Below, one piece after another: positions 7,522 through 22,071 of a stretch of DNA of 64,000 bases (position 1 is the stretch's first letter; each line of letters opens with the position of its first letter). Location of the stretch: assembly GCF_013408335.1 (NCBI RefSeq), contig NZ_JACBZR010000001.1, forward strand, positions 3,883,501-3,947,500, given 5' to 3'. The notes below the pieces were generated by a model. That model was given only the letters and a program-made list of their open reading frames with translations. It was not told the origin of the DNA and made no database searches. Origin of the DNA: Nocardioides panzhihuensis. Lineage in GTDB: Bacteria; Actinomycetota; Actinomycetes; Propionibacteriales; Nocardioidaceae. The translations under genes were made by a program, and so were the position numbers.

Positions 7522-8361
7522 ATGTCGGAGGCGTACTGGCGGGAGGTTCACTCGACCGGTCTCGCTGTACCCACGGACCGGCCGCTCGGTGACCTCACCA
7601 TCGAGCTCACCCGGATGCTCGGCGACCCCGACCCGGACGTACGCAGCGGACTGGCCGTTCCTGCCCTGTCGACGTGGATCCAGCGCGGTGTCTACGACGA
7701 CCTGCTCGCCGGCCTGGGCGACGGGATGGCCGCCGGTCTCGTAGTCGGCCTCGGTGACTCCGGCAACAACGGCGTCTTCCGCCGGGCCTCCTCGGTCGAG
7801 GCCCTGGCCGAGTGCATCGCCCGCGACAACGCGCGCTCGCTGGTGCGCGCGGAGAAGGTGCTGGAGTGGGGCGACCGGATCGCCACCTGGCTGCTGCGCG
7901 AGCGCGACCTGCGGGCCTTCGTCCCCGAGCGCGGTTGGGCACACGCGGTCGCGCGGGGCGCCGACGCCCTCGGCATCCTGGCCGCCTCCGAGCACCTCGG
8001 CAAGCCGGAGCTGACGGTGATCCTCGACGTCGTCGCCGACCGGGTGCTCGCCCGCGGCGACACGATCTACGCCCACGGTGAGCCCGACCGGCTGGCGTCG
8101 GCCACGATGGCCGTGCTGCGCCGCAACCTGGTCCCGCTCAACATCATGGAGCCGTGGATCAACCGGATCGTCACCGTCGCCACCGCCACCCCGGAGACCC
8201 CCGACCGGGACCCGTTCCTGCTCACCGGGAACGCCGAGGCGTTCCTCCGGGCCCTCTACCTTCAGCTCGCGCTCAGCCACGACCCCCCGCAGATCCGTGG
8301 CGACCTGCTGCTGGTCGTCGTCGCGGCCCTGAAGCGGTCCAACCGGGCATACCTCGGCTGA
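7522..8361 (+). CDS. DUF2785-like protein, helical-repeat hypothetical
   Basis: A 279-residue mostly helical protein. LTRMLGDPDPDVRSGLAVPALSTWI near the start and the overall HEAT-like pattern resemble the DUF2785 family, for which no biochemical role is known. No catalytic motif or signal peptide is visible. It is divergent from pdtaS with 84 bp between starts. An in-frame ATG nine bases upstream (7513) is possible, but GGCAGGA fits the start at 7522 better. Confidence 0.75.
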   Translation: MSEAYWREVHSTGLAVPTDRPLGDLTIELTRMLGDPDPDVRSGLAVPALSTWIQRGVYDDLLAGLGDGMAAGLVVGLGDSGNNGVFRRASSVEALAECIARDNARSLVRAEKVLEWGDRIATWLLRERDLRAFVPERGWAHAVARGADALGILAASEHLGKPELTVILDVVADRVLARGDTIYAHGEPDRLASATMAVLRRNLVPLNIMEPWINRIVTVATATPETPDRDPFLLTGNAEAFLRALYLQLALSHDPPQIRGDLLLVVVAALKRSNRAYLG

Positions 8362-8464
8362 ACCGCCGACCGGCGGACAGGGGCGAATTTCACGTCTCAG
8401 CGCCGGGTTTGAGAGACTGTCCCGAGGCCCCTCGGGGTCACGTACCCCAATGGAGGAGATCATC

Positions 8465-8539
8465 ATGGGCAAGACTGGCCGCAAGCGCCGCGCGCGCCGC
8501 AAGAAGGGCGCGAACCACGGCAAGCGCCCCAACAGCTGA
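8465..8539 (+). CDS. 50S ribosomal protein bL37 (24 residues)
   Basis: A tiny gene encoding the highly basic peptide MGKTGRKRRARRKKGANHGK followed by RPNS. The ANHGKRPN ending and run of Arg/Lys match bL37, the actinobacterial large-subunit protein first seen in mycobacterial ribosome structures, where it threads between rRNA domains. It has a strong ribosome site (GGAGGAG) 7-8 nt before the ATG and a perfect 15-bp terminator hairpin after the stop. It is small enough to be missed by gene callers. Confidence 0.92.
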   Translation: MGKTGRKRRARRKKGANHGKRPNS

Positions 8540-8555
8540 GCTGTTGAAATGACGT

Positions 8556-8585
8556 GAGAGCCCCAGCCGATCGGCTGGGGCTCTC
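8556..8585. terminator. Perfect palindromic terminator between bL37 and rsrA
   Basis: GAGAGCCCCAGCCGA at 8556-8570 is directly followed by its exact reverse complement at 8571-8585. It lies 17 bp after the bL37 stop and 44 bp beyond the rsrA stop on the other strand, so it can serve both transcripts. Confidence 0.75.
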
Positions 8586-8629
8586 GTCGCGTCTGGGCCC
8601 TTGTTCTGGGGCCTCGTTCTGGGGCCTCG

Positions 8630-8893
8630 TCAGGACCTGGTGCGAAGCTCCTGGATCTGGACCATGATCTTCGCGCGCAGGTCTCCCGGGGCGACCTCGG
8701 AGCACGAGCGCGCGACGACCGCCTTGACGATGCGCTGCTGATCGTAGGTCTCCAGGCAGGGGTTGCAGCTCTGCAGGTGCAGCTTGACCTGGTCGGCGTC
8801 GGCCGCGGCGAGCTCGTTGTCGATCAGGAAGACGATCTGCTCGAGGAAGTCGGCGCAGTCGCTCGGTGAGGCGTCGTGTTCGTGGGCACTCAT
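8630..8893 (-). CDS. rsrA: Zinc-binding redox anti-sigma factor RsrA (mycothiol system)
   Basis: An 87-residue ZAS-family anti-sigma factor. His39, Cys43 and Cys46 form the HxxxCxxC motif (HLQSCNPC), with additional Cys13 and Cys64, matching the Streptomyces RsrA layout. Thiol oxidation forms a disulfide, releases zinc and frees SigR. Its ATG overlaps the sigR stop (ATGA), a coupling expected for a stoichiometric inhibitor. Confidence 0.95.
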
Positions 8894-9510
8894 GACGCAC
8901 CTCCACGAGCGCCGGTGAGGTCGTTGGTGCGTACGTAGTCGGAGAGAAGATCGCGCAGCTGGCGCCGGCCGCGGTGAAGCCGCGACATCACGGTGCCGAT
9001 CGGGGTTTCCATGATCTCGGCGATCTCCTTGTAGGCGAATCCCTCGACGTCGGCGAGGTAGACAGCGAGCCGGAACTCCTCCGGGAGGCGCTGCAGCGCG
9101 TCCTTCACCTGAGAGTCGGGCAGGTGCTCGAGCGCCTCCATCTCCGCGGACTTCAGACCGGTCGAGGTGTGTGACTCGGCCCGGGCCAGCTGCCAGTCCT
9201 CGACGTCCTCGGACATCGACTGCTGCGGCTGGCGCTGCTTCTTGCGGTAGGTGTTGATGAAGGTGTTGGTGAGGATGCGGTAGAGCCAGGCCTTGAGGTT
9301 GGTGCCGGGCCTGAACTGATGGAAGGAGGAGTACGCCTTCGCGAACGTCTCCTGCACCAGGTCTTCCGCGTCGGACGGGTTGCGGGTCATCCGCATCGCC
9401 GCCGAGTAGAGCTGGTCGAGGAAGGGCAGCGCATCCCGCTCGAAGCGCAGCGCGCGCTCCTCGGGAGTCTCCGTAGCCAGGTCGACGACTTCATCGTTGT
9501 TGTCGCTCAT
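8890..9510 (-). CDS. sigR: ECF sigma factor SigR (SigH homologue), thiol-oxidative stress
   Basis: About 206 residues from Met at 9510. Region 2 reads [34 protein letters not shown] and [18 protein letters not shown]; region 4 has [20 protein letters not shown] and [12 protein letters not shown], very close to mycobacterial SigH and Streptomyces SigR. It transcribes thioredoxin, mycothiol and proteolysis genes during disulfide stress. An in-frame ATG at 9591 would add 27 residues and lies almost at the predicted start of transcription from a SigR-like promoter, recalling the unstable long isoform of Streptomyces SigR. The shorter start has a weak GGGA ribosome site. Confidence 0.93.
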
Positions 9511-9599
9511 CACGTCCCAGGGTACGCCGGTGAGCATCGGGGCGCTCATCGGCGACACGTTCGCCGTAGGGCGTTCGAGGAGGATCGTCATGTCGTGGG

Positions 9600-9627
9600 A
9601 ACGCCGCGACGGTCGCCAAACATTCCC
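9600..9627 (-). promoter_or_regulatory. Candidate SigR-dependent promoter of sigR
   Basis: On the minus strand GGGAAT (9622-9627) is followed after 19 nt by GTT (9600-9602), or 18 nt to CGTT. The SigR/SigH consensus is GGAAT with N18 then GTT. Transcription would begin near 9592-9595, so the long SigR form (ATG 9591) would be nearly leaderless and the short form would have an 80-nt leader. It overlaps the end of the upstream hydrolase gene region (stop at 9630). Confidence 0.55.
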
Positions 9628-9629
9628 AG

Positions 9630-10268
9630 CTAGGCGATGACCTCGCGGACCAACCACTCCAGGGTGGACTCGACCAGGATCGCGTCGGCCTCGGCCTGGC
9701 TGAGCGGGCCGCGCTTCCCGACGACGAGAGAGTGGTCGGCGCCGGGGATCGGGGTGACCTCGACGCTCTCGGGGAACTCCTCGGGTCTGCCGAACCTGTC
9801 GCGGGTGCCCTGAAGCACAAGCGTCGGCACCTTCGCCTCCAGCAGCTCGTGGGCACGAGAGATCTGGGGCTTGCTCACCGGGTGCAGCGGGAAGGCCAGG
9901 CAGAGCGCCCCGGCCGCACCGAAAGCCCGAGCCGTGCGGACCGCCGAGCGGGCGCCGGCGGAGCGCCCGCCGACCACCAGCGGCGTACGCACCCGCATCC
10001 AGTTGGCGGCCAGGGTCAGCGCAGCGTCGAGGGACTTGGGCGGCGTGGCCACCGGCTTCCCCTTGACGCGCCAGGGCTGCTCGAAACGGACCACGGTGAT
10101 CCCCTGCCCCGGCAGCGCGTCGTTGAGCGCCATCAGGTCGTGGGTGTCGATGCCGTTGCCCGCGCCGTGGGAGAGCAGCAGGGTCGCCTGTGGTCGCCGC
10201 GCCCGGCGGGTGTACAGCCGCCCTTCCCCGTAGGGCGTGTCGATCATCTGCGTCGTGGTTCCACCCAT
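9630..10268 (-). CDS. Alpha/beta hydrolase, KANL3/Tex30-like
   Basis: A 212-residue alpha/beta-fold hydrolase. [12 protein letters not shown] is the oxyanion strand-loop, [10 protein letters not shown] carries the nucleophile elbow (GxSxG, here G-R-S-A-G), and the C-terminal GADHSL supplies the catalytic His. The family resembles dienelactone hydrolase but its substrate is not known. It starts one base after the SRAP gene stop, so the two are cotranscribed and probably coupled. Its end lies next to the sigR promoter. Confidence 0.85.
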
Positions 10269-10269
10269 G

Positions 10270-11028
10270 TCATCCCCAGGCTTCCTCGATCGGTAGCGGC
10301 TCGATGAGCTCGCGGCCGTCGTTGCGTACGTTGCTCACCAGTGTCGAGACCGGGAAGGCCTCCAGACGGCCGGGCGCCGCCGGGGTCAGCAGCTCCACGT
10401 CGCCCGGGCGGGTCGGGTCGAGCCACTGGTCCCAGCGTTCACGCTCGACCATGAGCGGCATCCGGTCATGGATCCGCCCCAAGGAGTCCTCCGCCTCGGT
10501 GGTGATCACGGTGCAGCTCCACAGCCACCTGCCGGGGTCGTCCTCGGCCTTGGCGGGGTCGGGCCACAGCTCGTAGAGCCCGGCCATCGCCAGCACTTTC
10601 CCGTCCTTCGGGGTGATGAAGTAGGGCTGCTTGCGCGCCCGTCCTTTTCCACTCAGCCCTTTCGCGTCCTTGGCCTCGGTGGCGTACCACTCGAAGTAGC
10701 CGTCGGCCGGCAGCAGGCAGCGGCGCTTGGCGAAGGCCCGGCGATAGGCGGGCTTCTCGGCGACCGTCTCCATCCGGGCGTTGATCATCCGGTTGCCGAT
10801 CTTGACGTCCTTGGCCCAGGACGGGACCAGCCCCCAACGTACGGAGCGGAGCTGGCGCTCGCTGGGCGCGTCGTCCTCACGCGGCGGCCGCTCGAGGACG
10901 GCGTAGACATCGTCGGTCGGCGCGACGTTGTAGCTCTCCGTGAGCGGCTCCTGCAGACGCAGCTCATCGATCTCGAACTCCTCCGCCAGCTCGTCGGGCT
11001 GGCGGCTGGACGCGTAACGACCGCACAT
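10270..11028 (-). CDS. SOS-response-associated peptidase (YedK/HMCES, SRAP family)
   Basis: A 252-residue SRAP protein beginning MCGRYA, where Cys2 (after Met removal) forms a thiazolidine crosslink with abasic sites in single-stranded DNA. Conserved features include NVAPTD, RWGLVPSWAKD, NARMETV, CLLPADGYFEW with its catalytic Glu and the HDRMPLM motif with its His. It protects abasic sites during replication. Length is typical. No LexA box is seen upstream; it heads a two-gene operon with the hydrolase. Confidence 0.93.
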   Translation of the reverse strand: MCGRYASSRQPDELAEEFEIDELRLQEPLTESYNVAPTDDVYAVLERPPREDDAPSERQLRSVRWGLVPSWAKDVKIGNRMINARMETVAEKPAYRRAFAKRRCLLPADGYFEWYATEAKDAKGLSGKGRARKQPYFITPKDGKVLAMAGLYELWPDPAKAEDDPGRWLWSCTVITTEAEDSLGRIHDRMPLMVERERWDQWLDPTRPGDVELLTPAAPGRLEAFPVSTLVSNVRNDGRELIEPLPIEEAWG

Positions 11029-11096
11029 ACGTTCACCATAGCCCCGGGTGAGTGTGGCGTCAGGGGGTATTGCTCAGCCCAGATCCGCCGATGGGC

Positions 11097-11819
11097 TCAT
11101 GCTCCGCGGGCGAGCTCGTCGAGCAGGAAGCCGGCCGACTGGTCGTTCTCGGGAAGCCCCTCGATCCAGATCCGGTCGGCGCTGTGCTCGACCATCCGCT
11201 TGAGGAGCCCGAGCCGTTTGACCAGCGTCTCGTCACGCGGTGCGACCACGACCATCCGGCTGTGACCGACCTGTCCGACGGCGGCCGCGCCCGCGAAGAC
11301 CGTGCGGGCGGTCTGGCCCAGCAGCGACATCCGGCGCGCGGTGGCGATGCTGTCGGTCTTCTGACCGGGAGCGCCCGGGAGGTGGGCGTCGGTGACGACC
11401 AGCGCGTGGCTGCACGCCTTGGCGTCGCGATAGAGCTCCGATATCCGGTCACGTACGTGCGCGAGGGTGGAGAGGCCGGTGAGCGGGTCGGCACAGGAGA
11501 TGGTGTGCAGGTAGCCGAGCGTCGCCTCGCTCCAGGCGACCGAGAGAGCGTGCACCTCGACGAAGGCCGGGTCACGGTTCTCGACGGTCTGGGTCGTCAT
11601 CCGGAGGTCCTCGAGGCTCTCGCCGAGCGACACACCGGTCTCCGCGAGGTCATGGCCGACCACCCAGCAGGCCTCGGCGACGTAGCTGCTCCGCTCGGCC
11701 AGCGCCTCTGCGACAGCCTCGAACCGCTCCGGGAGCAACGCGCGCTGCTGCTCGGAGAGCTCTGTGGTCTCAGTCGGGGTGGAGGCACGCGGACGCCGAT
11801 CTCGGGAGAACAGCCGCAC
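11097..11819 (-). CDS. Degenerate GGDEF-domain protein
   Basis: A 240-residue protein. The first 120 residues are helical (possible coiled-coil sensor). CADPLTGLSTLAHVRDRI matches the start of a diguanylate cyclase domain (D-x-L-T-G-L), but where GGDEF should stand there is VGQVGHSRMVVVAP, so the metal-binding acidic residues are lost. It is therefore unlikely to make c-di-GMP and may act as a binding or scaffold protein. Start GTG at 11819 with AGGGG upstream. It is divergent from the giant ECF sigma gene with 292 bp between them. Confidence 0.65.
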   Translation of the reverse strand: MRLFSRDRRPRASTPTETTELSEQQRALLPERFEAVAEALAERSSYVAEACWVVGHDLAETGVSLGESLEDLRMTTQTVENRDPAFVEVHALSVAWSEATLGYLHTISCADPLTGLSTLAHVRDRISELYRDAKACSHALVVTDAHLPGAPGQKTDSIATARRMSLLGQTARTVFAGAAAVGQVGHSRMVVVAPRDETLVKRLGLLKRMVEHSADRIWIEGLPENDQSAGFLLDELARGA

Positions 11820-12111
11820 AACTCACCCCTTTCCTGATGTTTCCTGGCGTTGTTGTCGCTTCTCGTCCGATGCCGAAGGGTCATGGATACAGTGGTGGGC
11901 ACGCCGGTCCAGCTCGCGCTCACATGGACTTGACGCACGAAATCGGCAAGCATGACGCGATAGAGGCCCGTCTTTCTGGGTTTCTCGAAAGTTGTTGTCA
12001 GATCCCGGGGAGGGGGCGTGACGTGCGGGCTACCGCTGTCGTTAGCACAACGCATGTCTCCCGTTGGCGCAACCCGCGTCATACCTCCATACTTCGAACG
12101 TCTCTGGTGCC
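11820..12111. promoter_or_regulatory. Divergent promoter region between GGDEF-like and ECF sigma genes
   Basis: A 292-bp gap, somewhat AT-richer than its flanks, with no coding sequence I can support. The ECF gene has no clear ribosome site before its GTG (12112), so its promoter probably lies close to the start and the transcript may be leaderless. No inverted repeat stands out. Confidence 0.4.
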
Positions 12112-14622
12112 GTGAGCGAAACGACCCCCACCTCTCTACAGACCCTCGACGCCCCTGGCGACGCCGAGCTGATCACCGCTGTCCGTGGGGGTGATCTGGA
12201 TGCGTACGGGCTGCTGTTCGAGCGCCATGTCGAGTCTGCGCGCCGCCTCGCCCGCCAGCTGGTGTCGGCGGGCGACGTCGACGACCTCGTCTCCGAGGCT
12301 TTCGCCAAGGTGCTCAACGTGCTGCAGAGGGGCGGCGGCCCGGACCTGGCGTTCCGCGCCTACCTGCTGACGTCGTTGCGGCGGCTCCACGTGGACAAGA
12401 TCCGCGCCGCCTCCAAGCTCACCACGACCGACGACCTGACGCCGTTCGACCCGGGCGTGCCCTTCGAGGACACCGCGGTGTCGGGCTTCGACAACCAGGC
12501 GGCCGCAAAGGCGTTCCAGCAGCTCCCCGAGCGTTGGCAGCAGGTGCTGTGGCACACCGAGGTCGAAGGCCAGAAGCCGGCCGAGATCGCGCCCCTGCTC
12601 GGAATGTCGGCCAACTCGGTCTCCGCGCTCGCCTACCGTGCTCGCGAGGGTCTCAAGCAGGCCTTCATCTCGATGCACGCGCAGGATGCCGGCGAGGAGG
12701 CCTGCGCCACGACGCGAGCCAACCTGGGCGCCTACATCCGCAACGGCTTGTCCAAGCGTGACTCGAAGAAGGTCGACGAACACCTCCAGGACTGCCGCCC
12801 CTGCACCGCGATCTACCTCGAGCTCACCGAGGTCAACTCCGGTATGGGCGCTTGGCTCGCACCTGCCCTGCTCGGCGCAGCCGGCGCGGGCTACCTCGCC
12901 GTCGGCAGTGGCGTCGCCGCCAAGGGCGGCGCGCTGCTCTTCTTCGGTCGAGTCAAGGACTGGGTGCTGGGCGACCCTGTGGGACGTACGGTCGCGGGTG
13001 GCGCCGGTGTCGCGGCCGCTGCGGCCGTGGTCGCCGGGTTCGCGCTCACCGGTGGTGACCCGGCCCCGAAGCAACCGGCCGCCGACGAGCCAGCCGCGCA
13101 GGCGCCTGCTGCCGCCGACCCGGCTCCTGCTCCTCCCGCCGCTCCCCCGGCTGCTCCGCCGCCGGCAGCCGCTCCGCCCGCCGGCCAGCCCGCGGCCCCG
13201 CCGGCCGCACCACCAGCGGCCCCGCCTGCCGACACTCCCGTGCCAGCGCAGGAGGCGCCGGTGATCACCGCGCCTCTGCCTACGGTCGAGGTCTCTCCGG
13301 GCGGCAAGGCGGTCATCGACCTGACCCAGGGCGCCAGTGACGCCGACGGCGATCCGCTCTCGGTCAAGGAGGCCGCTCTAGCAGCCCCTGCCCGCGGCAC
13401 GGTCACCAAGGGCGGCGCCACGACCTCCGGCGGAAAGGGCGGCGGCGTCAGCGGCGCGATCTTCGGCGGCCTGCGGATGGCCGGCGAGCCCGTCACCACC
13501 GTGACCTACCAGCCGGCCAAGGGCTGGCGCGGCACCGAGACGATCGAGTACATCCTCACCGACGGCAAGGGTGGCGATGTCGCCGGCAGCGTGGACGTGA
13601 CCACACCCAACGCTGCCCCGGAAGCTGTCGAGGACTCGGCCACGGCCAAGGTCACCGTCGGGGACGGCAACAACGGCCTGGGCATGGGCAATCAGAGCAC
13701 GACGGCCACGACGACCGTCGACGTGCTCGCCAACGACGCCGACGACAACGGCGACGCCCTCCAGCTCGTCTCGGTCACCGACCCGGCACACGGCACGGCC
13801 GAGATCGTCGACGGCAAGGTCGCCTACACGATGGACGAGGGCTACACCGGGGCCGGCGACACGTTCACCTACCAGATCTCGGACGGCCACGGCGGCACGG
13901 ATGTCGGCGAGGTCGAGATCACCTTCGCCTACGACGCCGGCATCGCCCTGGACCACGTGACCTACGACGGTTACGAGCACATCCAGGTGGCAGCCGACGG
14001 TATCCCCGAAGGCGACTACACCGCGACCTTCCGCTACCGGCTGACCGGCATCGGCCAGCCCTACCCGGAGCGCTCGAACCCGCAGTCGATGTGGGCCTGC
14101 TCCCAGCTCAGCGTCCCGTCCGTGCCGCAAGGCGGCGTCGTCGAGGGCGAGTGCACCCTGTCGAGCACGAACAACGGCCAGGAGGTGCTCCACTTCGACT
14201 TCGTCCCCGACGGTGACTGGTCGTTCGAGGGGACGCTCCAGGCGGTCGGCTACACGGACTCCGCTCCCGGCAACGACCGCGTCAGCGTCTCCGGCACCGC
14301 CCCGGAGCCGACGCCGACTCCTACGCCGACCCCTACGCCGACTCCTACGCCGACCCCGGACGTGCCGCAGCTGCCTACGCCGACTCCGACACCGGACGTG
14401 CCACAGCTGCCGACGGCGCCCGGCACGCCCGACCCGCCCCAGCTGCCTGTTCCGCCCAGCGACTCGGCTGACCCCGAGAACGGCTCAGGCCCTTCTGACA
14501 GGCCCAGCAGCAGCGCCAGCCCTGGTCGGACTCCGGATGTCGAACCTCCTGCGGAGGAGCGCGGCGCCCGCACGGGCGGGCTGACCTGGAAGGGTTTCCT
14601 GAAGGCGTTCGGGATCGACTGA
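12112..14622 (+). CDS. Giant ECF sigma factor fused to zinc finger, membrane segments and cadherin-like ectodomains
   Basis: An 836-residue protein. Residues 15-100 are sigma region 2 ([31 protein letters not shown]), 130-185 sigma region 4 ([26 protein letters not shown]). Residues 195-240 form a zinc-finger anti-sigma-like motif (Cys198, His224, Cys228, Cys231). Hydrophobic segments lie at about 247-279 and 292-313. A Pro/Ala-rich linker (315-385) leads to two cadherin/Ig-like modules with DADGDPL and DADDNGDAL calcium-type motifs, then a PTPTPT-rich stalk and a C-terminal [17 protein letters not shown]. It looks like a membrane-tethered sigma factor with an external sensor, similar in plan to multidomain actinobacterial ECF groups such as ECF52/53. 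The GTG start has no clear ribosome site. Confidence 0.88.
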
Positions 14623-14640
14623 TCCCACATCAGCTCACCG

Positions 14641-14670
14641 CGCGTCCGTCGGCTCCCACCGGCGGACGCG
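14641..14670 (+). terminator. Terminator after the giant ECF sigma gene
   Basis: CGCGTCCGTCGG (14641-14652) pairs with CCGGCGGACGCG (14659-14670), one G-U wobble, 6-nt loop. TTTT follows at 14677. It lies 18 bp after the stop codon. Confidence 0.8.
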
Positions 14671-14870
14671 CTGCGGTTTTCGCAGGTCGGAACCGAGGTT
14701 CCGCGAGCAGGGTCGACCTGCTACGCGCCGCGATACGCGTACTCCCGCGGTGTTGCCGCCTCTCAACGGTACAACCCAGACCGCCATCGAGGCGGGCGCC
14801 TTGCGGGAGCACACGTCTCACGACGCTCGCGACGGCCGCCCCTGCTCGCGGAACCTCTAAGGTTGACACC

Positions 14871-16166
14871 GTGACTTCCACGACCGACCGTGCAGCCGAC
14901 ATCGCGGACCCCTGGCCGGCGCCCCGAGCGCTCGGACCGGCGACGGCGACGGTGTCGCTGCCTGGAAGCAAGTCGCTCACCAACCGGGCGCTGCTGCTGG
15001 CCTCGATCGCGGAGGGGCCCGGCGTCGTACGTCGTGCGCTTCGGTCCCGCGACACGCTGCTGATGGCGGCAGCGCTGACGTCTTTGGGCGCGCAGGTGGA
15101 CACCTCGGGTGACGACTGGGTCGTGACGCCCGGGGCGTTCGGGGCCGACGCCGAGGTCGACTGCGGTCTCGCGGGGACGGTGATGCGGTTCGTACCTCCG
15201 GTGGCTGCGCTCTCCACCGGCACGATCGCCTTCGACGGCGACCCGCACATGCGCAACCGGCCGGTCGGCGAGGTGCTGCGCGCGCTTCGCGACCTCGGGG
15301 TCTCGATCGACGGCGAGGGGCTGCCGTTCACGATCCACGGCACCGGCGCCGTGCCCGGTGGGACCGTGGTCGTCGACGCCTCGGCATCCAGCCAGTTCAT
15401 CAGCGCGCTTCTGCTGGCGGGGGCGCGGTATGAGCGGGGCGTCGACATCCGCCACGAGGGCAAGCCGGTCCCGTCGCTGCCCCACATCGACATGACGGTC
15501 GCGATGCTTCGAGAGCACGGCGTCGCGGTCGACGCTCCGTCATCGGGGGGTGACGCCAACCGGTGGACGGTGGCTCCGGGACCGATCAAGGCACTGGATC
15601 GCACCATCGAGCCCGACCTGTCCAACGCGGCGCCGTTCCTCGCCCTCGCGGCGGTCTCGGGCGGGACCGTGACCGTACGCGACTGGCCGCAGGCCACCGA
15701 CCAGCCGGGCGACCAGCTGCGCGAGGTGCTCTCGCTGATGGGCTGCGAGGTGCGTGTGGGCGACGACGGGCTCACCGTGACCGGGCCGGAGCAGCTCACC
15801 GGGATCGACCTGGACATGCGCGACATCGGCGAGCTCACCCCGGCCGTCGCCGCGCTGTGCGCGCTCGCCTCGACGCCCTCGCACCTGACCGGCATCGGCC
15901 ACATCCGTGGCCACGAGACCGACCGGCTGGCCGCCCTGGCCCGAGAGCTGGGCTCGCTCGGAGCCGACGCCACCGAGCATCCCGACGGCCTGACGATCCG
16001 GCCGGCGACGCTGCACGGCGGGGTGTTCCACACCTACGCCGACCACCGGATGGCCCACGCCGGAGTGATCATCGGCGCTGCCGTCGATGGCGTCCTCGTC
16101 GAGAACATCACGACCACCAGCAAGACCTTCACCGACTTCGCGCCCTTCTGGGCGGGACTCTTCTGA
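14871..16166 (+). CDS. aroA: 3-phosphoshikimate 1-carboxyvinyltransferase (EPSP synthase)
   Basis: A 431-residue EPSP synthase that joins shikimate-3-phosphate and PEP in the shikimate pathway. The N-terminal [19 protein letters not shown] holds the substrate lysine and arginine; [12 protein letters not shown] corresponds to the glyphosate-binding loop region, with Gly-Thr in place of some class I motifs; the C-terminal half has DHRMAHAG. Length is normal. GTG start at 14871 without a clear ribosome site. It is 7 bp upstream of rsgA, so they are likely cotranscribed. Confidence 0.95.
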
Positions 16167-16173
16167 GCATCTG

Positions 16174-17184
16174 ATGGCGAAGTCACAGCGCCGCTACGGC
16201 ACCGAGGACGTCGAGCATTACGACCGGCCCCGCCGCCGGACGCGGCCGCGGACGAAGGACCGGCCCAGCTATGACGACGCCGATCTCGGGCGGGTGATCA
16301 CGGTCGACCGGGGCCGGTTCACGCTGGTCATGGACGAGGCACCCGATGTCGAGGTGTGGGCGGTCAAGGCCCGCCCGCTGGGCCGCAAGGGCGTCGTCGT
16401 GGGTGACCGGGTGAAGGTCGTCGGCGACACCTCGGGCGCGGAGGGCGCGCTGGCCCGGATCGTCGAGCTCGAGCCGCGGGAGACCGTGCTGCGGCGTACG
16501 GCCGATGACGACGACCCGGTGGAGCGGGTCGTGGTCGCCAACGCCGACCAGCTGGTGATCGTCACCGCGATCGCCGACCCCGAGCCGCGCACCGGGTTCA
16601 TCGACCGCGCGCTGGTGGCCGCCTACGAGGCCGGCATCGACCCGCTGCTGTGCATCACCAAGGCCGACCTGGCCGACCCCGAGTCGCTGGTCTCGATCTA
16701 TCGGTCGCTGGGGGTGCCGTGGGTGGTCACACAGCGGGGCGGGGACATGAGCGCGCTGCGGGACGAGCTCGACGGGCGTACGTCGGTGCTGCTCGGCCAC
16801 AGCGGCGTCGGCAAGTCGACGCTGGTCAACGCCATCGTCCCCGACGCCGGCCGGGAGGTGGGGCACGTCAACGCGGTCACGGGACGCGGACGGCACACGT
16901 CCACCTCGGCGCTGATGCTGCGGCTTCCCGGGACAGGGTGGATCGTGGACACCCCGGGGATCCGTACGTTCGGCCTGGCCCACGTCGAGCCCGAAAGACT
17001 CATCGTCTCCTTCCCTGACCTGGAGGAGGCGACGACCGCCTGCCCGCGTGGCTGCTCCCACGCCGTCGATGCGCCGGAGTGCGGGCTGGACGTCGCGGTC
17101 GAGGCCGGCCGGCTCGATCCGGACCGGGTCACCTCGTTCCGGCGCCTGCTCGAAGCGCGTTCGGTGCCGACGTACGCCCTCTGA
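16174..17184 (+). CDS. rsgA: Ribosome small-subunit GTPase RsgA
   Basis: A 336-residue circularly permuted GTPase that checks and matures the 30S subunit. An N-terminal OB fold follows a basic leader (RRRTRPRTKDR). The G motifs occur in permuted order: ITKADL (G4) first, then GHSGVGKS (G1), and DTPGIR (G3). The C-terminal zinc site is CPRGCSHAVDAPEC. The start at 16174 follows the aroA stop by 7 bp; the longer frame from 16087 overlaps aroA. Confidence 0.95.
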   Translation: MAKSQRRYGTEDVEHYDRPRRRTRPRTKDRPSYDDADLGRVITVDRGRFTLVMDEAPDVEVWAVKARPLGRKGVVVGDRVKVVGDTSGAEGALARIVELEPRETVLRRTADDDDPVERVVVANADQLVIVTAIADPEPRTGFIDRALVAAYEAGIDPLLCITKADLADPESLVSIYRSLGVPWVVTQRGGDMSALRDELDGRTSVLLGHSGVGKSTLVNAIVPDAGREVGHVNAVTGRGRHTSTSALMLRLPGTGWIVDTPGIRTFGLAHVEPERLIVSFPDLEEATTACPRGCSHAVDAPECGLDVAVEAGRLDPDRVTSFRRLLEARSVPTYAL

Positions 17185-17238
17185 CCTATTACCAGGGGAG
17201 GCAACGCTCAGGGACCGCAGCCACTAGAGTGAACCCTC

Positions 17239-18111
17239 GTGGCGAGCACTCCTGACTTCAACGACGACCTGCGGCTGGCGCACCTGCTGGCCGACGACGC
17301 CGACTCGCTGTCCACGTCGCGGTTCAAGGCGCTCGACCTGCACGTCATGACCAAGCCCGACCTGACCCCCGTCTCGGACGCGGACAAGGCCGTGGAGGAG
17401 TCGATCCGCCGCACCCTCTCCCGCGCGCGTACGCGGGACGCGATCACCGGGGAGGAGTCGGGCTCGTCCGGCTCGTCCAGCCGCCGTTGGATCGTCGACC
17501 CGATCGACGGCACGAAGAACTTCGTCCGTGGTGTGCCGGTCTGGGCGACCCTGATCGCGCTCGCCGTCGACAACGAGGTCGTGATGTCGGTCGTCTCCGC
17601 GCCCCAGCTCGGGCGACGCTGGTGGGCGGCGAAGGGCCAGGGCGCCCACACCGGCAAGTCGCTGATGAAGTCGACCCGCTGCCAGGTCTCGGACGTACGC
17701 CGCCTGGAGGACGCCTCGATGTCCTACTCCTCGCTGCACGGCTGGGAGGAGCGCGAGCGCCTCGAGGACTTCCTGGCGCTGATGCGGCGCTGCTGGCGCA
17801 CCCGCGCCTACTCCGACTTCTGGTCCTACATGCTCGTCGCCGAGGGTGCGGTCGACATCGCCGTCGAGCCGGAGCTCGAGCTCTACGACATGGCCGCGCT
17901 CGACATCATCGTGCGTGAGGCCGGTGGCCAGTTCACCTCGCTGGCCGGCGACCCGGGACCGTGGGGCGGCAACGCGCTGGCCACCAACGGACATCTGCAC
18001 GAGGCGGTGCTCTCGTTCCTCGGCGGGCTGCCCGACGGCAGCAACGACGCCGACTGGCCGGCCGCGCAGCCCGGGTCGGTCACCGCGTTCCGCCGTCCGG
18101 GAACCGAGTAG
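17239..18111 (+). CDS. hisN: Histidinol-phosphatase, inositol-monophosphatase type
   Basis: A 290-residue metal-dependent phosphatase. Motifs are GEESG (metal Glu), WIVDPIDGTKNFVRG (metal Asp pair) and ELYDMAALDIIVREAGG, all characteristic of the IMPase superfamily; the overall sequence matches actinobacterial HisN, which removes phosphate from histidinol phosphate in histidine synthesis. GTG start at 17239. It probably belongs to the aroA-rsgA-hisN transcript and is followed by a long hairpin. Confidence 0.88.
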   Translation: MASTPDFNDDLRLAHLLADDADSLSTSRFKALDLHVMTKPDLTPVSDADKAVEESIRRTLSRARTRDAITGEESGSSGSSSRRWIVDPIDGTKNFVRGVPVWATLIALAVDNEVVMSVVSAPQLGRRWWAAKGQGAHTGKSLMKSTRCQVSDVRRLEDASMSYSSLHGWEERERLEDFLALMRRCWRTRAYSDFWSYMLVAEGAVDIAVEPELELYDMAALDIIVREAGGQFTSLAGDPGPWGGNALATNGHLHEAVLSFLGGLPDGSNDADWPAAQPGSVTAFRRPGTE

Positions 18112-18127
18112 ACCCGTCCCACCAGAC

Positions 18128-18189
18128 CCAGGGTCTGTTTGAGAACTCGGAAGCGCCGGCCAGGCGCCGCGTTCCCAAACAGACCCTGG
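18128..18189 (+). terminator. Long hairpin downstream of hisN
   Basis: Arms of 19 bp at 18128-18146 and 18171-18189 (CCAGGGTCTGTTTGAGAAC against GTTCCCAAACAGACCCTGG) have a single mismatch. The 24-nt loop contains a second small hairpin (GCGCC/GGCGC). It sits 17 bp after hisN and just before a CRP-like site. No U-tract follows. Confidence 0.65.
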
Positions 18190-18205
18190 CGTGACACACG
18201 TCACA
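18190..18205. promoter_or_regulatory. CRP/GlxR-like site upstream of the CBS protein
   Basis: CGTGA-CACACG-TCACA matches TGTGA-N6-TCACA at 9 of 10 positions. It ends 17 bp before the ATG of the CBS-domain gene, where binding would most likely block transcription. Confidence 0.5.
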
Positions 18206-18222
18206 GCCGCTACCGTTGGTAC

Positions 18223-18657
18223 ATGAAGATCGCGGACGTACTCACTCGGAAGGCGATCGCTGAAGTCGTCACGATCGCATCAACCGCCACCGTGCGTGAC
18301 CTGCTCGGGGTCCTCGCCGAGCACAGCATCGGTGCCTGCGTCGTCAGCAGCGACGGCACTGACGTCGCCGGGATCGTCTCGGAGCGCGACGTCGTCCGTC
18401 GCCTCCACGAGAACGACGCGCTGCTCTCCGCCGAGATCTCCTCGATCATGACCACCGAGGTCGAGACCTGTGCGCCCGAGGCCACCATCGACGACATCCT
18501 CGGCACCATGACCAAGCGCCGGATCCGGCACATGCCGGTCGTCTCCACCGACGGTGACCTGGTCGGCATCGTGAGCATCGGCGACCTGGTCAAGCACCGC
18601 ATCGACCAGCTCGCCTTCGAGCGCGACCAGCTCGAGGCGTACGTCCACCAGACGTAG
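18223..18657 (+). CDS. Tandem CBS-domain protein
   Basis: A 144-residue protein consisting of two CBS repeats. The first ends GIVSERDVVRRL, the second GIVSIGDLVKHRI, with the MTTEVETCAPEATIDDIL and RIRHMPVV signatures. Such proteins bind adenosine nucleotides and often regulate a partner. Similar small CBS proteins occur in dormancy and stress regulons of actinobacteria, but the partner here is not evident. The start at 18223 is chosen because the upstream frame to 18139 crosses the terminator hairpin and the CRP-like site. Confidence 0.88.
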   Translation: MKIADVLTRKAIAEVVTIASTATVRDLLGVLAEHSIGACVVSSDGTDVAGIVSERDVVRRLHENDALLSAEISSIMTTEVETCAPEATIDDILGTMTKRRIRHMPVVSTDGDLVGIVSIGDLVKHRIDQLAFERDQLEAYVHQT

Positions 18658-18742
18658 GGCAGGGCGGGGACAGCCCCGTTCTTCACAGGACCTGCACAAC
18701 TTCTGCAGCCTTTCCGGCGGCTCGGGCTTCTAGCCTGAGCAT

Positions 18743-19441
18743 GTGCCAGAACATACGACCGCTCGCCGGGTCCTCGTCGTCGAGGACGAGCCGATCATCA
18801 ACCAGGCCGTCTCCGACCGGCTCGAGGCGGAGGGGTACGACGTCGTCCGGGCGTGGGACGGCCCCGGGGCGGTCTCCTGCTTCGAGGAGACCTCGCCCGA
18901 CCTGGTCGTCCTGGACGTGATGCTGCCGGGCTACGACGGTCTGGAAGTGTGCCGCCGGATCCAGGCCGTTCGCCCGGTGCCGGTGCTCATGCTCACCGCC
19001 CGGGTCGACGAGGCCGATGTGCTGATCGGGCTCGGCGTCGGGGCCGACGACTACCTGACCAAGCCGTTCCGGGCCCGTGAGCTGGTCGCCCGGGTGAACG
19101 CCCTCCTGAGGCGGGTGGAGCGGGCCGCCGAGCTGGCGGCGTCGCCGCGGCGTACGGCCGAGATCGGGGGCCTGCGGATGGATCCGGCCGCACGGCGGGT
19201 GTGGGTCGACGAAGCCGAGGTCAGGCTCACGCCGACCGAGTTCGACCTGCTGGTCTGCCTGGCCGCCGACCCCGGTGCCGTCGTCACTCGCGAACGTCTG
19301 CTCGCCGAGGTCTGGGGCTGGAACGACGCCTCCGGCACCCGCACCGTCGACAGCCATGTGAAGGGGCTGCGCGCCAAGATCGGGTCTGCCCGGGTCCGGA
19401 CCGTGCACGGTGTCGGCTACGCACTGGAGGCCGGCGAGTGA
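18743..19441 (+). CDS. OmpR-family response regulator
   Basis: A 232-residue two-domain regulator. The receiver domain has the acidic pair in VVEDE, phospho-acceptor Asp58 in LVVLDVMLPG, Thr in MLTAR and Lys in LTKPFRAREL. The C-terminal winged helix contains LTPTEFDLL and TVDSHVKGLRAKIG. GTG start. It overlaps the kinase gene by four bases (GTGA), so both are translated together. Confidence 0.95.
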   Translation: MPEHTTARRVLVVEDEPIINQAVSDRLEAEGYDVVRAWDGPGAVSCFEETSPDLVVLDVMLPGYDGLEVCRRIQAVRPVPVLMLTARVDEADVLIGLGVGADDYLTKPFRARELVARVNALLRRVERAAELAASPRRTAEIGGLRMDPAARRVWVDEAEVRLTPTEFDLLVCLAADPGAVVTRERLLAEVWGWNDASGTRTVDSHVKGLRAKIGSARVRTVHGVGYALEAGE

Positions 19442-22071
19442 CTCCCCTGGAACGGGTCTCCTCGATCAAGGTCAAGCTCGGGCTCCTGGTCGCCGCCAGC
19501 GCCCTGGTCGCGGCGGTCGTCGCCTCCGTCGGGCGGGTCGCCGGGGTCTCGCCGTGGGTCTCGATCCCGGTCACGATCGGGATCGCCCTGGCGGTCACCC
19601 AGCTGCTGGCGGCCGGGATGACGTCCCCGCTGCGGCAGATGACCCTCGCGGCCCGGCGGATGGCCCGGGGCGACTACACGGTCTCGGTGCCGGCCGGCGG
19701 AGCCGACGAGGTCGGTCAGCTGGGCCGGGCGTTCAACACGATGGCCAGCGATCTCGGCGCGGTCGACCGCCAGCGCCGAGATCTGGTCGCCAACGTCTCC
19801 CACGAGCTGCGTACGCCGCTGGCGGCTCTCACCGTCGTGCTGGAGAACCTCGTGGACGGCGTCGGGTCCGAGCCGGCCGCCCTCCAGACCGCGCTCGGCC
19901 AGGCCGAGCGCCTGAGCCGGCTGGTCGAGGACCTGCTCGACCTCGCGCGGGTCGACGCCGGCAAGGCGCCGCTGAGCACCTCGTCGGTCGACCTCCGCCC
20001 GCTGCTCGAGGCCTGTGTCGCGGAGGTGCGGGCGAACGGGCGTCCGGTCTCCTACGTGGTCGACGCACCGGCCGACCTGGTCGTCGACGCCGACCCCGAC
20101 CGGCTCAGCCAGCTCGTCGTCAACCTGCTCGACAACGCCTCCCGGCACAGTCCGCGAGACGGTGTGGTCACCGTGCGCGCCGGTAGGGACGGCGAGCGCT
20201 ACCACCTCGAGGTCCTCGACTCCGGGCCCGGTGTTCCGGCCGCCGACCGGGGTCGCGTCTTCGAGCCCTTCGGCACGCTGAGCGCCTCCGCCGAGAGCGG
20301 TGGGACCGGGCTCGGGCTCGCCATCGCCCGGTGGGTCACCGACCTGCACGGCGGCTCCATCGCCTTCCTCGACCCGCTCCCCGACACCGCGGGTGCCCGC
20401 GTCCGCGTCGACCTTCCGCTGCGGCCTCCCGCACGCGCCATCCCCCATCAGCTCGATGCCAGTCGTCCTGCCCCCACCCATGAGGAGACCCAGATGCCCA
20501 CCACTCCCCCGGCGGCCGAGCCCGCCGAACCGGCCCAGCCGGTCGACGCTCGCGAGACCGCGACGTCGGCCGACCCCAAGGCCGCCTACGTCACCCCGTC
20601 GGTCCTCGACGACATCTTCGGCACCTACTGGCCAGACTCCGGCGTGACCGGAAGGTTCGGACTCTTCATCGGTGCCGTGGTCGCCGGCCTGCTCGGCGGA
20701 CTGTTGATCCCCGACCGCAACGCCGGCCTCGGCACGGTCATCGTGCTGCTGGCCGCCGGCGGGGTCGTGATGATGGCGGGCAAGGAACGGCGCAGCCGGT
20801 TCTCGATCCTCTGTTACGTGCTGTACGCGATGCTCTCCTCGGTCGCGGTGGTCCGCGACGCCGAGTGGATCGTCGTGCTGTGCCTGATCACCGCCATCGC
20901 TGTCCTGCTGTGCGCCTCCACGCAGGCGAAGACCCTGTTGGGGATCATGCTGACCGGGATCTCCTGGCCGCTGGCCGGGCTGCGCGGGATCCCGTGGCTG
21001 GGCCGGACGCTGACCAGCGTCTCCGGTCGCGGACACGGTGCCGCGGTCGCCCGCACCACGGTGCTGTCCCTGCTCGGACTGGTGATCTTCGGACTCCTGT
21101 TCACCACCGCCGACGCGGTGCTGGGCAGCTGGGTCGACCAGTTCGTGCCGGACGTACGCCCCGATACCCTCGCGGCCCGGATCTTCATGACCGTCTTCGT
21201 CTTCGGGGTGGTGCTGGGCGCTGCGTACCTGGCCGTGAACCCGCCGCGGATCGACCAGAGCGAGCGTACGTCCCAGCCCGTCGCCAACCGCTACGAGTGG
21301 CTGGCTCCGGTCGGGGTCGTGGTCGCCGTCTTCGCGGCGTTCCTGGTCGCTCAGGCGACCGCGGTGTTCGGCGGCGAGGACTACCTGCGCGAGACGACGG
21401 GGCTGACGTATGCCGAGTACGTCCACCAGGGGTTCGGCCAGCTCACCGTCGCGACCGCACTGACTCTGCTGGTGATCTGGGCGGCGGCTCGCAAGGCGCC
21501 GGTGGAGACCATCGCCGACCGGCTGTGGCTGCGGGTCGCGCTCGGGCTGCTCGCCGCCGAGGCCCAGGTCGTCGTCGGGTCGGCGCTGTATCGGATGCAC
21601 CTCTACCAGGAGGCGTACGGCTTCACGCAGCTCCGTCTGCTCGTGGACGTCTTCGAGGCCTGGCTGGGTCTGCTGGTGGTCGCCGGGCTCGTCGCCGCGG
21701 TGGCCGGCGGCGCGATCGGTCGCGGGGTCTGGCTCGGTCGGTTCGCCCTGGTGAGCGGCGCTGTCGCGCTGCTCGGGATCGCCGCCATCAACCCGGACGC
21801 GTGGATCGCCGAGCACAACGTCTCGCGCTATGAGGAGACCGGGAAGATCGACACCGACTTCCTCTCCGGTCTCAGCGACGACGCGGTGCCGGCCCTGAAG
21901 AAGCTCCCAGCGGACCTGCGGAGCTGTGTGCTCGGGACCGACGATCGCGAGGGCGACTGGCTGGAGTGGAACCTCGGCCGTGCGCGGGCCGACGGCCTGA
22001 CCCCGACCTATCTCGTGCCGGACGACGCGACCGCGACGGTGTGCCCCAGCGAGATTCGATACGTAGACTGA
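19438..22071 (+). CDS. Sensor histidine kinase fused in frame to a DUF4173/DUF4153-like membrane protein
   Basis: A single 877-codon frame. Residues 1-352 are a complete kinase: two membrane helices (about 12-32 and 41-61), HAMP, HisKA with His122 in VANVSHELRTPLAAL, and HATPase (NLLDNASRHS, DSGPGVP, GTGLGLAIA). Residues 353-877 are a polytopic protein of roughly ten helices beginning MPTTPPAAEPAEPAQP and resembling DUF4173/DUF4153. At the joint, GAGGAG precedes an ATG at 20494, so the second part may also be made separately. Either the two genes lost a stop codon or the fusion is real. The partner regulator lies immediately upstream. Confidence 0.8.
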   Translation: MTPLERVSSIKVKLGLLVAASALVAAVVASVGRVAGVSPWVSIPVTIGIALAVTQLLAAGMTSPLRQMTLAARRMARGDYTVSVPAGGADEVGQLGRAFNTMASDLGAVDRQRRDLVANVSHELRTPLAALTVVLENLVDGVGSEPAALQTALGQAERLSRLVEDLLDLARVDAGKAPLSTSSVDLRPLLEACVAEVRANGRPVSYVVDAPADLVVDADPDRLSQLVVNLLDNASRHSPRDGVVTVRAGRDGERYHLEVLDSGPGVPAADRGRVFEPFGTLSASAESGGTGLGLAIARWVTDLHGGSIAFLDPLPDTAGARVRVDLPLRPPARAIPHQLDASRPAPTHEETQMPTTPPAAEPAEPAQPVDARETATSADPKAAYVTPSVLDDIFGTYWPDSGVTGRFGLFIGAVVAGLLGGLLIPDRNAGLGTVIVLLAAGGVVMMAGKERRSRFSILCYVLYAMLSSVAVVRDAEWIVVLCLITAIAVLLCASTQAKTLLGIMLTGISWPLAGLRGIPWLGRTLTSVSGRGHGAAVARTTVLSLLGLVIFGLLFTTADAVLGSWVDQFVPDVRPDTLAARIFMTVFVFGVVLGAAYLAVNPPRIDQSERTSQPVANRYEWLAPVGVVVAVFAAFLVAQATAVFGGEDYLRETTGLTYAEYVHQGFGQLTVATALTLLVIWAAARKAPVETIADRLWLRVALGLLAAEAQVVVGSALYRMHLYQEAYGFTQLRLLVDVFEAWLGLLVVAGLVAAVAGGAIGRGVWLGRFALVSGAVALLGIAAINPDAWIAEHNVSRYEETGKIDTDFLSGLSDDAVPALKKLPADLRSCVLGTDDREGDWLEWNLGRARADGLTPTYLVPDDATATVCPSEIRYVD
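20484..20496 (+). promoter_or_regulatory. Internal ribosome-binding site and start inside the kinase fusion
   Basis: GAGGAG lies about 6-7 nt upstream of the in-frame ATG at 20494, exactly between the kinase domain and the membrane domain. It implies that the DUF4173-like protein (525 residues) can be translated on its own. Confidence 0.55.

Follow-up and report, generated by a model that had tools for sequence, protein, structure and literature searches.

Fusions of the ECF52/53 type have been little studied. The first ECF52 member to be characterised, SCO4117 of Streptomyces coelicolor, was reported in 2018, in an article whose accessible text places the group in Actinobacteria only (PMC5826349). 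According to the same text, positive autoregulation is seen with a truncated SCO4117, which activates its own gene's expression although zinc finger, membrane region and carbohydrate-binding domain have been removed, the sigma domain alone can modulate development, and release is proposed to occur via a protease or a conformational change (PMC5826349). Proteolysis is expected for the ECF48, ECF52 and ECF53 groups in what is available of a review (PMC8999054), and an excerpt of a further paper restates the fusion plan and mentions predicted carbohydrate-active domains (PMC10766802). The accessible parts of these three sources name neither cadherin modules nor a GGDEF-like partner, and a literature search that took in few subscription papers found no paper on such a sigma protein or on a sigma/GGDEF-like pair.

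The gene studied here lies at 12,112..14,622 on the + strand of the window, the whole stretch of 64,000 nt of Nocardioides panzhihuensis DNA that was analysed, and encodes a membrane-tethered ECF sigma factor of 836 aa, with a GTG start and the TGA stop included in the coordinates. Like SCO4117, the protein joins an ECF sigma domain, a zinc finger, a membrane region, a Pro-rich extension and an outside module; however, the ectodomain consists here of cadherin/Ig modules and a Cys-pair domain, while SCO4117 is described as ending in a carbohydrate-binding part (PMC5826349). Of the features given there for ECF52, the ECF domain, zinc finger, transmembrane region and Pro-rich extension are present and the carbohydrate-binding domain is not (PMC5826349); a Pfam scan of the extension for such a domain found none, with only Ig/cadherin modules over the cut-off. 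The neighbours also differ, being aroA and a pseudo-GGDEF gene and not atrA, in a comparison made by description only, and a SCO4117 orthologue looked for in the Streptomyces genome of locus L066 could not be pinned down. As described for ECF53 and ECF48, the sigma domain is extended C-terminally by a zinc-finger anti-sigma part and by membrane helices, one or two in number, but the extension has about 640 residues where the available review text gives "up to 400" (PMC8999054). In IutY (ECF243), too, sigma factor and membrane anti-sigma part are reported to form one protein, from which the sigma factor is freed by regulated proteolysis (PMC8999054). IutY serves, however, the siderophore signalling of a Gram-negative and is without a cadherin ectodomain. 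RsgI of Clostridium thermocellum is an anti-sigma factor separate from its sigma factor and no ECF fusion. The likeness to RsgI lies in the sensing of outside substrates and, according to the accessible text, in cleavage by RseP within the membrane helix (PMC12203970). Judged by its domain plan, the protein follows the known ECF52/53 design, of which the cadherin ectodomain is a variant, and we conclude that the more novel part is the two-gene module that it forms with its partner, together with the promoter of that module.

The sigma factor and its fused anti-sigma domain

Pfam places sigma region 2 at 12,214..12,414 (residues 35-101; Sigma70_r2, PF04542, E 1e-7), sigma region 4 at 12,502..12,648 (residues 131-179; Sigma70_r4_2, PF08281, E 1.1e-7) and a zinc-finger anti-sigma-type domain at 12,703..12,804 (residues 198-231; zf-HC2, PF13490, E 7.7e-7), all on the + strand. 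Regions 2 and 4 are the sole sigma regions of the 836-aa protein, as is typical of ECF sigma factors; TIGR02937 (sigma70-ECF) matches residues 33-184 with E 5e-18, and residues 17-182 align with solved ECF sigma factors (1or7, E 1.3e-7). The signature of class I, zinc-type anti-sigma domains is H-x3-C-x2-C plus an upstream Cys; here the zinc ligands C198, H224, C228 and C231 are invariant in an alignment of 55 sequences (A1), and zf-HC2 is over its cut-off. The earlier note had described one gene joining sigma regions 2 and 4, a zinc finger, hydrophobic segments, a Pro-rich linker and two cadherin/Ig modules, and the analysis bears this out; the linker, rich in Pro and Ala, was read from the sequence at 13,063..13,251 (+; residues 318-380).

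Among 7991 candidates scored, 1538 are homologues of the 836-aa protein at E <= 0.001, the best of them carrying the identical Pfam set, and 39 sigma loci were obtained from named records; the domain plan is therefore not due to chance. Over residues 1-328, the nearest records are a Nocardioides MAG (98% in the best segment), N. albus (97%) and N. turkmenicus (96%). Sigma region 2 is matched at 45 places of the own genome, yet 12,112..14,622 alone closely matches residues 1-283, the next best match being a BldN-like sigma factor (E 9.5e-11, 29% identity). In one genome of the genus (G023:C1:2487105-2487940) two overlapping frames make up the sigma gene, through a frameshift or an assembly error. 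Directly 3' of the sigma gene there is a strong hairpin without a T run (14,622..14,690; z -3.76). An Rfam scan of 8,000..20,000 gave no match, and a tRNA search of the whole window found none.

The gene order in Nocardioidaceae-type loci is largely kept, as sigR region, hydrolase, SRAP gene, divergent gene, sigma gene, aroA, rsgA and hisN. By tblastn, aroA follows the sigma gene in 20 of 21 loci (L031-L050 and L054; the DNA of the other one, L049, stops inside the sigma gene), and 18 of the 21 have the sigR gene. Homologues share descent, and counts of loci and proteins are counts of non-independent events.

Membrane topology and the ectodomain

Two hydrophobic stretches follow the zinc finger: a first segment at 12,844..12,909 (+; residues 245-266 of a weak stretch at about 245-279) and a likely single transmembrane helix at 12,991..13,050 (+; residues 294-313 of a stretch at 289-318, with the best window at 294-312). 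If both crossed the membrane, the cadherin-like part would be cytoplasmic, as the earlier note had remarked, and the protein a membrane-anchored cytoplasmic scaffold; this would agree with the one to two helices reported for ECF48/52/53 in the accessible text of PMC8999054. The homologues make this reading improbable. The topology set comprised 121 proteins (the query and P0002-P0121), of which 117 are anchored and the four without an anchor were left out. The first stretch is the weaker one, the second segment being the more hydrophobic of the two in 114 of the 117. K/R are more numerous between the segments (median 30 residues) than in the 25 residues that follow the second one in 107 proteins, equally numerous in nine and less numerous in one, with means of 3.1 and 1.1. 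Paired Cys are a mark of exported domains, and downstream of the second segment an even number of Cys is found in 115 of the 117 (none in 17, two in 88, four in six and six in four); the two proteins with an odd count include P0077, whose Arg-rich tail seems to be out of frame. Moreover, lectin, I-set and cadherin modules are found at the same place in relatives. N242, P251, L254, G255 and Y261, in or beside the first segment, are invariant (55 sequences, A1), so that a functional part is to be expected there and not a plain anchor; we read this segment as the end of the anti-sigma domain or as a membrane-associated helix, not as a simple pass. From the Cys parity, the charge distribution and the weak, motif-bearing first segment, the protein probably passes the membrane once, with the N-terminus in, the C-terminus out and the ectodomain outside, even if helix 294-313 is only moderately hydrophobic. 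The domains, Cys parity and charge support the physical fusion of a sigma factor to an outside domain that had been suggested earlier; an ectodomain placed inside by two helices is unlikely on the same parity, charge and first-segment evidence.

The extension carries two cadherin/Ig-type modules with estimated limits, at 13,258..13,611 (+; residues ~383-500) and 13,612..13,932 (+; residues ~501-607, with the best Big_9 stretch at 531-604); the Pfam matches over the cut-off within residues ~383-607 are to Big_9, Cadherin_5 and Cadherin_4. The remainder had been taken for a long C-terminal stalk. A Thr/Pro-rich stalk with a conserved C-terminal tail is indeed present (14,302..14,613, +, read from the sequence), but what was called the stalk begins with a third domain, at 13,933..14,301 (+; residues ~608-730), which bears Cys663 and Cys681 and was recognised by profile comparison. 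Pfam returns nothing for this terminal domain, even with the threshold at E 5. A model of it, made from 46 of 59 short cadherin-less homologues (the 13 without a lone close Cys pair were left out), matches 25 of 51 cadherin-type proteins (the query and P0002-P0051) and none of the 51 reversed sequences; the query is not among the 25, while its near relatives P0004 and P0005 are. When the short and the cadherin-type groups were compared profile to profile over this domain (43 cadherin-type rows including the query), the probability was 97.8% and E 1e-12. On the model matches and the profile comparison of both groups, the Cys-pair domain is read here as the end that members of the Nocardioides family have in common, and the cadherin modules as inserted in varying number, with seven matched stretches in P0034. 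In Nocardioidaceae, cadherin forms and short Cys-pair forms occupy one syntenic slot, and because of this we take forms with and without cadherin modules for orthologues.

On a quick tree of 155 sequences based on the sigma and zinc-finger part, the label "cadherin" requires at least four changes. The label was taken from Pfam for the P entries, from scans for L037 and L040, and from similarity for L031-L036, L038 and L039; L049, L058, L061, L069, P0001 and P0052 were left out before the tree was made. The three Jiangellaceae proteins scanned (L055, L060 and L065) have I-set Ig modules and a ricin-type lectin domain in the ectodomain position. In the Streptomyces genome of L066, one gene (L091) joins sigma region 2 to a ricin-type domain over the cut-off; further matches to the query in that genome (E 1e-8 to 1e-12) carry ricin (L096, L099), CBM6 (L097, L101) or laminin-G-like (L098) domains, and in these five Pfam finds no sigma region at E 0.001. 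We infer that the ectodomain may be a changeable sensor on a constant chassis.

Some smaller features of the C-terminal ends were also seen. The tail at 14,581..14,613 is kept after the variable Thr/Pro-rich stalk in the N. albus-like group (seven aligned, with one K to E change), and other family members have different ends, several of them a short hydrophobic tail. On a Streptomyces contig, four related sigma genes (L090, L091, L093 and L094) lie within about 18 kb; a ricin-type lectin end is over the cut-off in L091 and below it in L090, which is the L066 gene, and in L093.

The divergent pseudo-GGDEF partner

On the - strand, at 11,097..11,819, lies the gene of a degenerate GGDEF-like protein of 240 aa, identified by profile search and without a GG(D/E)EF motif. 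No Pfam family scores over the cut-off for this protein. With a profile of the window protein and 16 relatives, the first match is the GGDEF protein 7e6g (E 1.3e-4); the eight matches with E up to 0.1 are all named GGDEF, diguanylate cyclase, WspR or response-regulator, and among six weaker matches one is unrelated by name. The GG(D/E)EF motif, the active-site motif by which an active diguanylate cyclase is recognised, is absent from the 11 partner frames checked and from its place in alignment A3. Partner homologues number 806 at E <= 0.001 among 7998 candidates scored, and among the best 120 of them the names, where given, are mostly "hypothetical" and rarely "GGDEF".

Of the 39 loci, which were fetched by the sigma part alone and 16 of which had entered the partner profile, 37 have a partner homologue next to the sigma gene; it is absent at L066 (Streptomyces) and L069. 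Divergent partners are those of the Nocardioidaceae-type loci, of Umezawaea, of a Micrococcales bacterium and of an acidimicrobial MAG. In 13 Jiangellaceae-type loci (L055-L065, L067 and L068, one unclassified MAG included) the partner, with E 3e-10 to 2e-15, shares the strand of the sigma gene and closely precedes it. Of 59 genomes of the genus, the own one included, 34 have a close sigma gene (G023 with its split gene among them), 11 have only distant homologues and 14 have none (E <= 1e-40). The partner is strong (E <= 1.4e-21) in 33 of the 34 genomes with a close sigma gene and in none of the 25 others; the exception is G005, where the promoter motif described below is also absent (L130). 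Weak partner matches occur in two genomes with distant sigma homologues (G014, E 1.2e-7; G055, E 3.8e-11), and the other nine of these 11 genomes have no partner match; that more distant relatives, L066 included, manage without a partner counts against the switch proposed below. A reverse search from the partner through 396 genomes of the phylum was weak, with only about seven candidates scored per genome: the three strongest matches, the own genome included, adjoin a sigma gene, one of them as a piece at the locus end, and the other seven have no sigma gene in the locus DNA examined.

As judged by this conservation, the sigma gene is one half of a two-gene module with a pseudo-GGDEF partner, and the pair looks like a compact apparatus by which an outside signal is converted into gene expression. 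The partner gene, the third ectodomain and the promoter pair are additions to what the earlier note had described.

The promoter motif, its reader and the proposed switch

The intergenic regions yielded the motif GTCA(C/T)N-N15-CGT(C/T), that is, CGTCAT-N16-CGT(C/T). Two ECF-type promoters are predicted in the window, CGTCATA-N15-CGTC at 12,077..12,102 (+), 9 nt before the start of the sigma gene, and CGTCATG-N15-CGTC at 11,932..11,957 (-), 112 nt before that of the partner. The partner-facing motif is present in 23 of 24 intergenic regions and the sigma-facing one in 19 of 24 with a looser -35 (13 with the strict form), against a background of 5 strict and 10 loose matches in 556,620 strand-bases of the remainder of the same 23 loci. 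The spacer of 15 stands out, the other spacers from 10 to 20 yielding at most 3/23. As a held-out set, 29 other loci were taken from genomes of the genus; all but L120 include upstream DNA, and L102-L105 are close to the first set. A partner-facing site was found in 24 of the 28, a sigma-facing site in 16 and either in 27. The absence of a sigma-facing site in 12 of 28 counts against autoregulation. In Jiangellaceae-type loci, whose gene order is different, the motif precedes the partner-sigma pair in 12 of 13 and is absent at L060; the whole loci contain 20 strict matches on both strands, 12 of them before the pair. At L052 (Micrococcales) and L053 (acidimicrobial), sigma gene and partner are present and the motif is absent. 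The own genome has 16 strict matches, compared with 3 for a reversed-pattern control.

The consensus recognised by BldN of Streptomyces, CGTAACN16CGTTGA (PMC2375139), is near to this motif. A BldN-family sigma factor is found in 57 of the 59 genomes of the genus (mostly at 160-180 bits, below the 206-bit cut-off), and since the BldN-like sigma factor, with 29% identity, is the nearest own-genome paralogue of the sigma part, similar promoters are expected of the two. Another ECF sigma factor, most likely BldN-like, might then switch on the sigma and partner genes, and the protein would stand downstream in a cascade and not regulate itself; we regard this as the main rival reading, possible though less likely. 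Two of the six -35 positions differ from those of BldN. Where a locus has both promoters, they share the -10 letter (C or T) in 19 of 19 cases in the first set and 12 of 13 in the held-out set, and the letter varies from clade to clade, as would be expected of a locus-specific reader; shared descent could also produce this. Strict matches are more frequent in the 34 genomes with the sigma gene than in the 25 others (1.74 and 1.06 per Mb, p 2e-4); however, once two own-locus sites per genome are subtracted, the enrichment is not significant (p 0.12), so that a wider regulon is unproven and another sigma factor may read the motif. Given that the motif stays bound to the locus through changes of gene order and that the -10 letters match, we moderately favour recognition by the fused sigma factor itself over a BldN-like reader.

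Beside the parts of the protein, their order and conservation, the exchange of ectodomains, the linkage of the partner and the motif, all of which are read from the sequences, we infer self-inhibition, proteolytic release, autoregulation, a role of the partner and an outside cue. The reading to which we incline, with fair but not high confidence, is a signal-gated, proteolytically released and self-regulating one-protein sigma switch with interchangeable ectodomains and a pseudo-GGDEF partner. The ECF sigma factor would be held inactive at the inner membrane face by its own fused zinc-finger anti-sigma domain; helix 294-313 would cross the membrane once, and the Pro-rich linker would place the cadherin/Ig modules, together with the terminal domain of disulphide type, in the wall or beyond it. 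A cue from outside, which may be a ligand or the state of the wall or of contact, would lead to site-1 and then to intramembrane site-2 cleavage, freeing the sigma part. This would read CGTCAT-N16-CGT(C/T) promoters, first those of its own gene and of the divergent pseudo-GGDEF gene; the partner protein may in turn feed back on the switch or gate it. Proteolytic release is plausible by analogy with what is reported of SCO4117 and IutY (PMC5826349, PMC8999054). The own genome has two M50 (site-2-protease type) genes; M50 proteases are present in all 14 control genomes, and the two thus say little.

Gating could also take place without proteolysis, if binding of a ligand displaced the zinc finger from the sigma domain and the sigma factor then worked while tethered to the membrane. 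The invariant residues in 242-261, between zinc finger and helix, could transmit such a conformational signal, and a conformational change is one of the possibilities named for SCO4117 (PMC5826349); IutY and the truncated SCO4117, as far as the accessible accounts go, point to release (PMC8999054, PMC5826349), and we consider a tethered active form unlikely. Release remains the preferred reading. More tentatively, and with some doubt, we propose that the locus represents an actinobacterial module, in which a tethered ECF sigma factor with interchangeable adhesion or lectin ectodomains is controlled by a dedicated, catalytically dead GGDEF-like partner and both genes are under one self-recognised promoter; the partner might be an adaptor, an anti-sigma cofactor or a nucleotide sensor. 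If true, such a module would integrate outside contact and a cytoplasmic signal in two genes. The locus offers handles in its predicted target promoters, its predicted topology and a partner that keeps its place next to the sigma gene in different families and gene orders, and through this locus the gating of fused, membrane-tethered sigma factors becomes directly testable.

Candidates for targets outside the locus were considered as well. Besides the two sites at the sigma locus, most motif matches of the own genome lie in or overlap reading frames, and a wider regulon was not adopted. A STAS-type gene with the motif in two relatives was rejected as a target, the piece conserved in seven genomes resembling the -10 of another promoter and the own genome being without the second box. 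Upstream of this gene, seven genomes (L154-L160) share a conserved box, CGTCATAG, with CAACC about 16 nt before it, which looks like another ECF-type promoter. A conserved secreted-type gene (L165-L173) with a relaxed motif upstream in 7 of 9 genomes was not counted either, several of its copies having a nearby BldN-like CGTAAC box. Two further occurrences were seen: the motif stands 125 nt before an apparent ABC-transporter ATPase gene in two genomes (L073 and L140), and in three genomes of the genus (L084, L137 and L144) it occurs, with varying spacers, 60-63 nt before the gene of a conserved 71-aa protein (MATTTITARHRS...).
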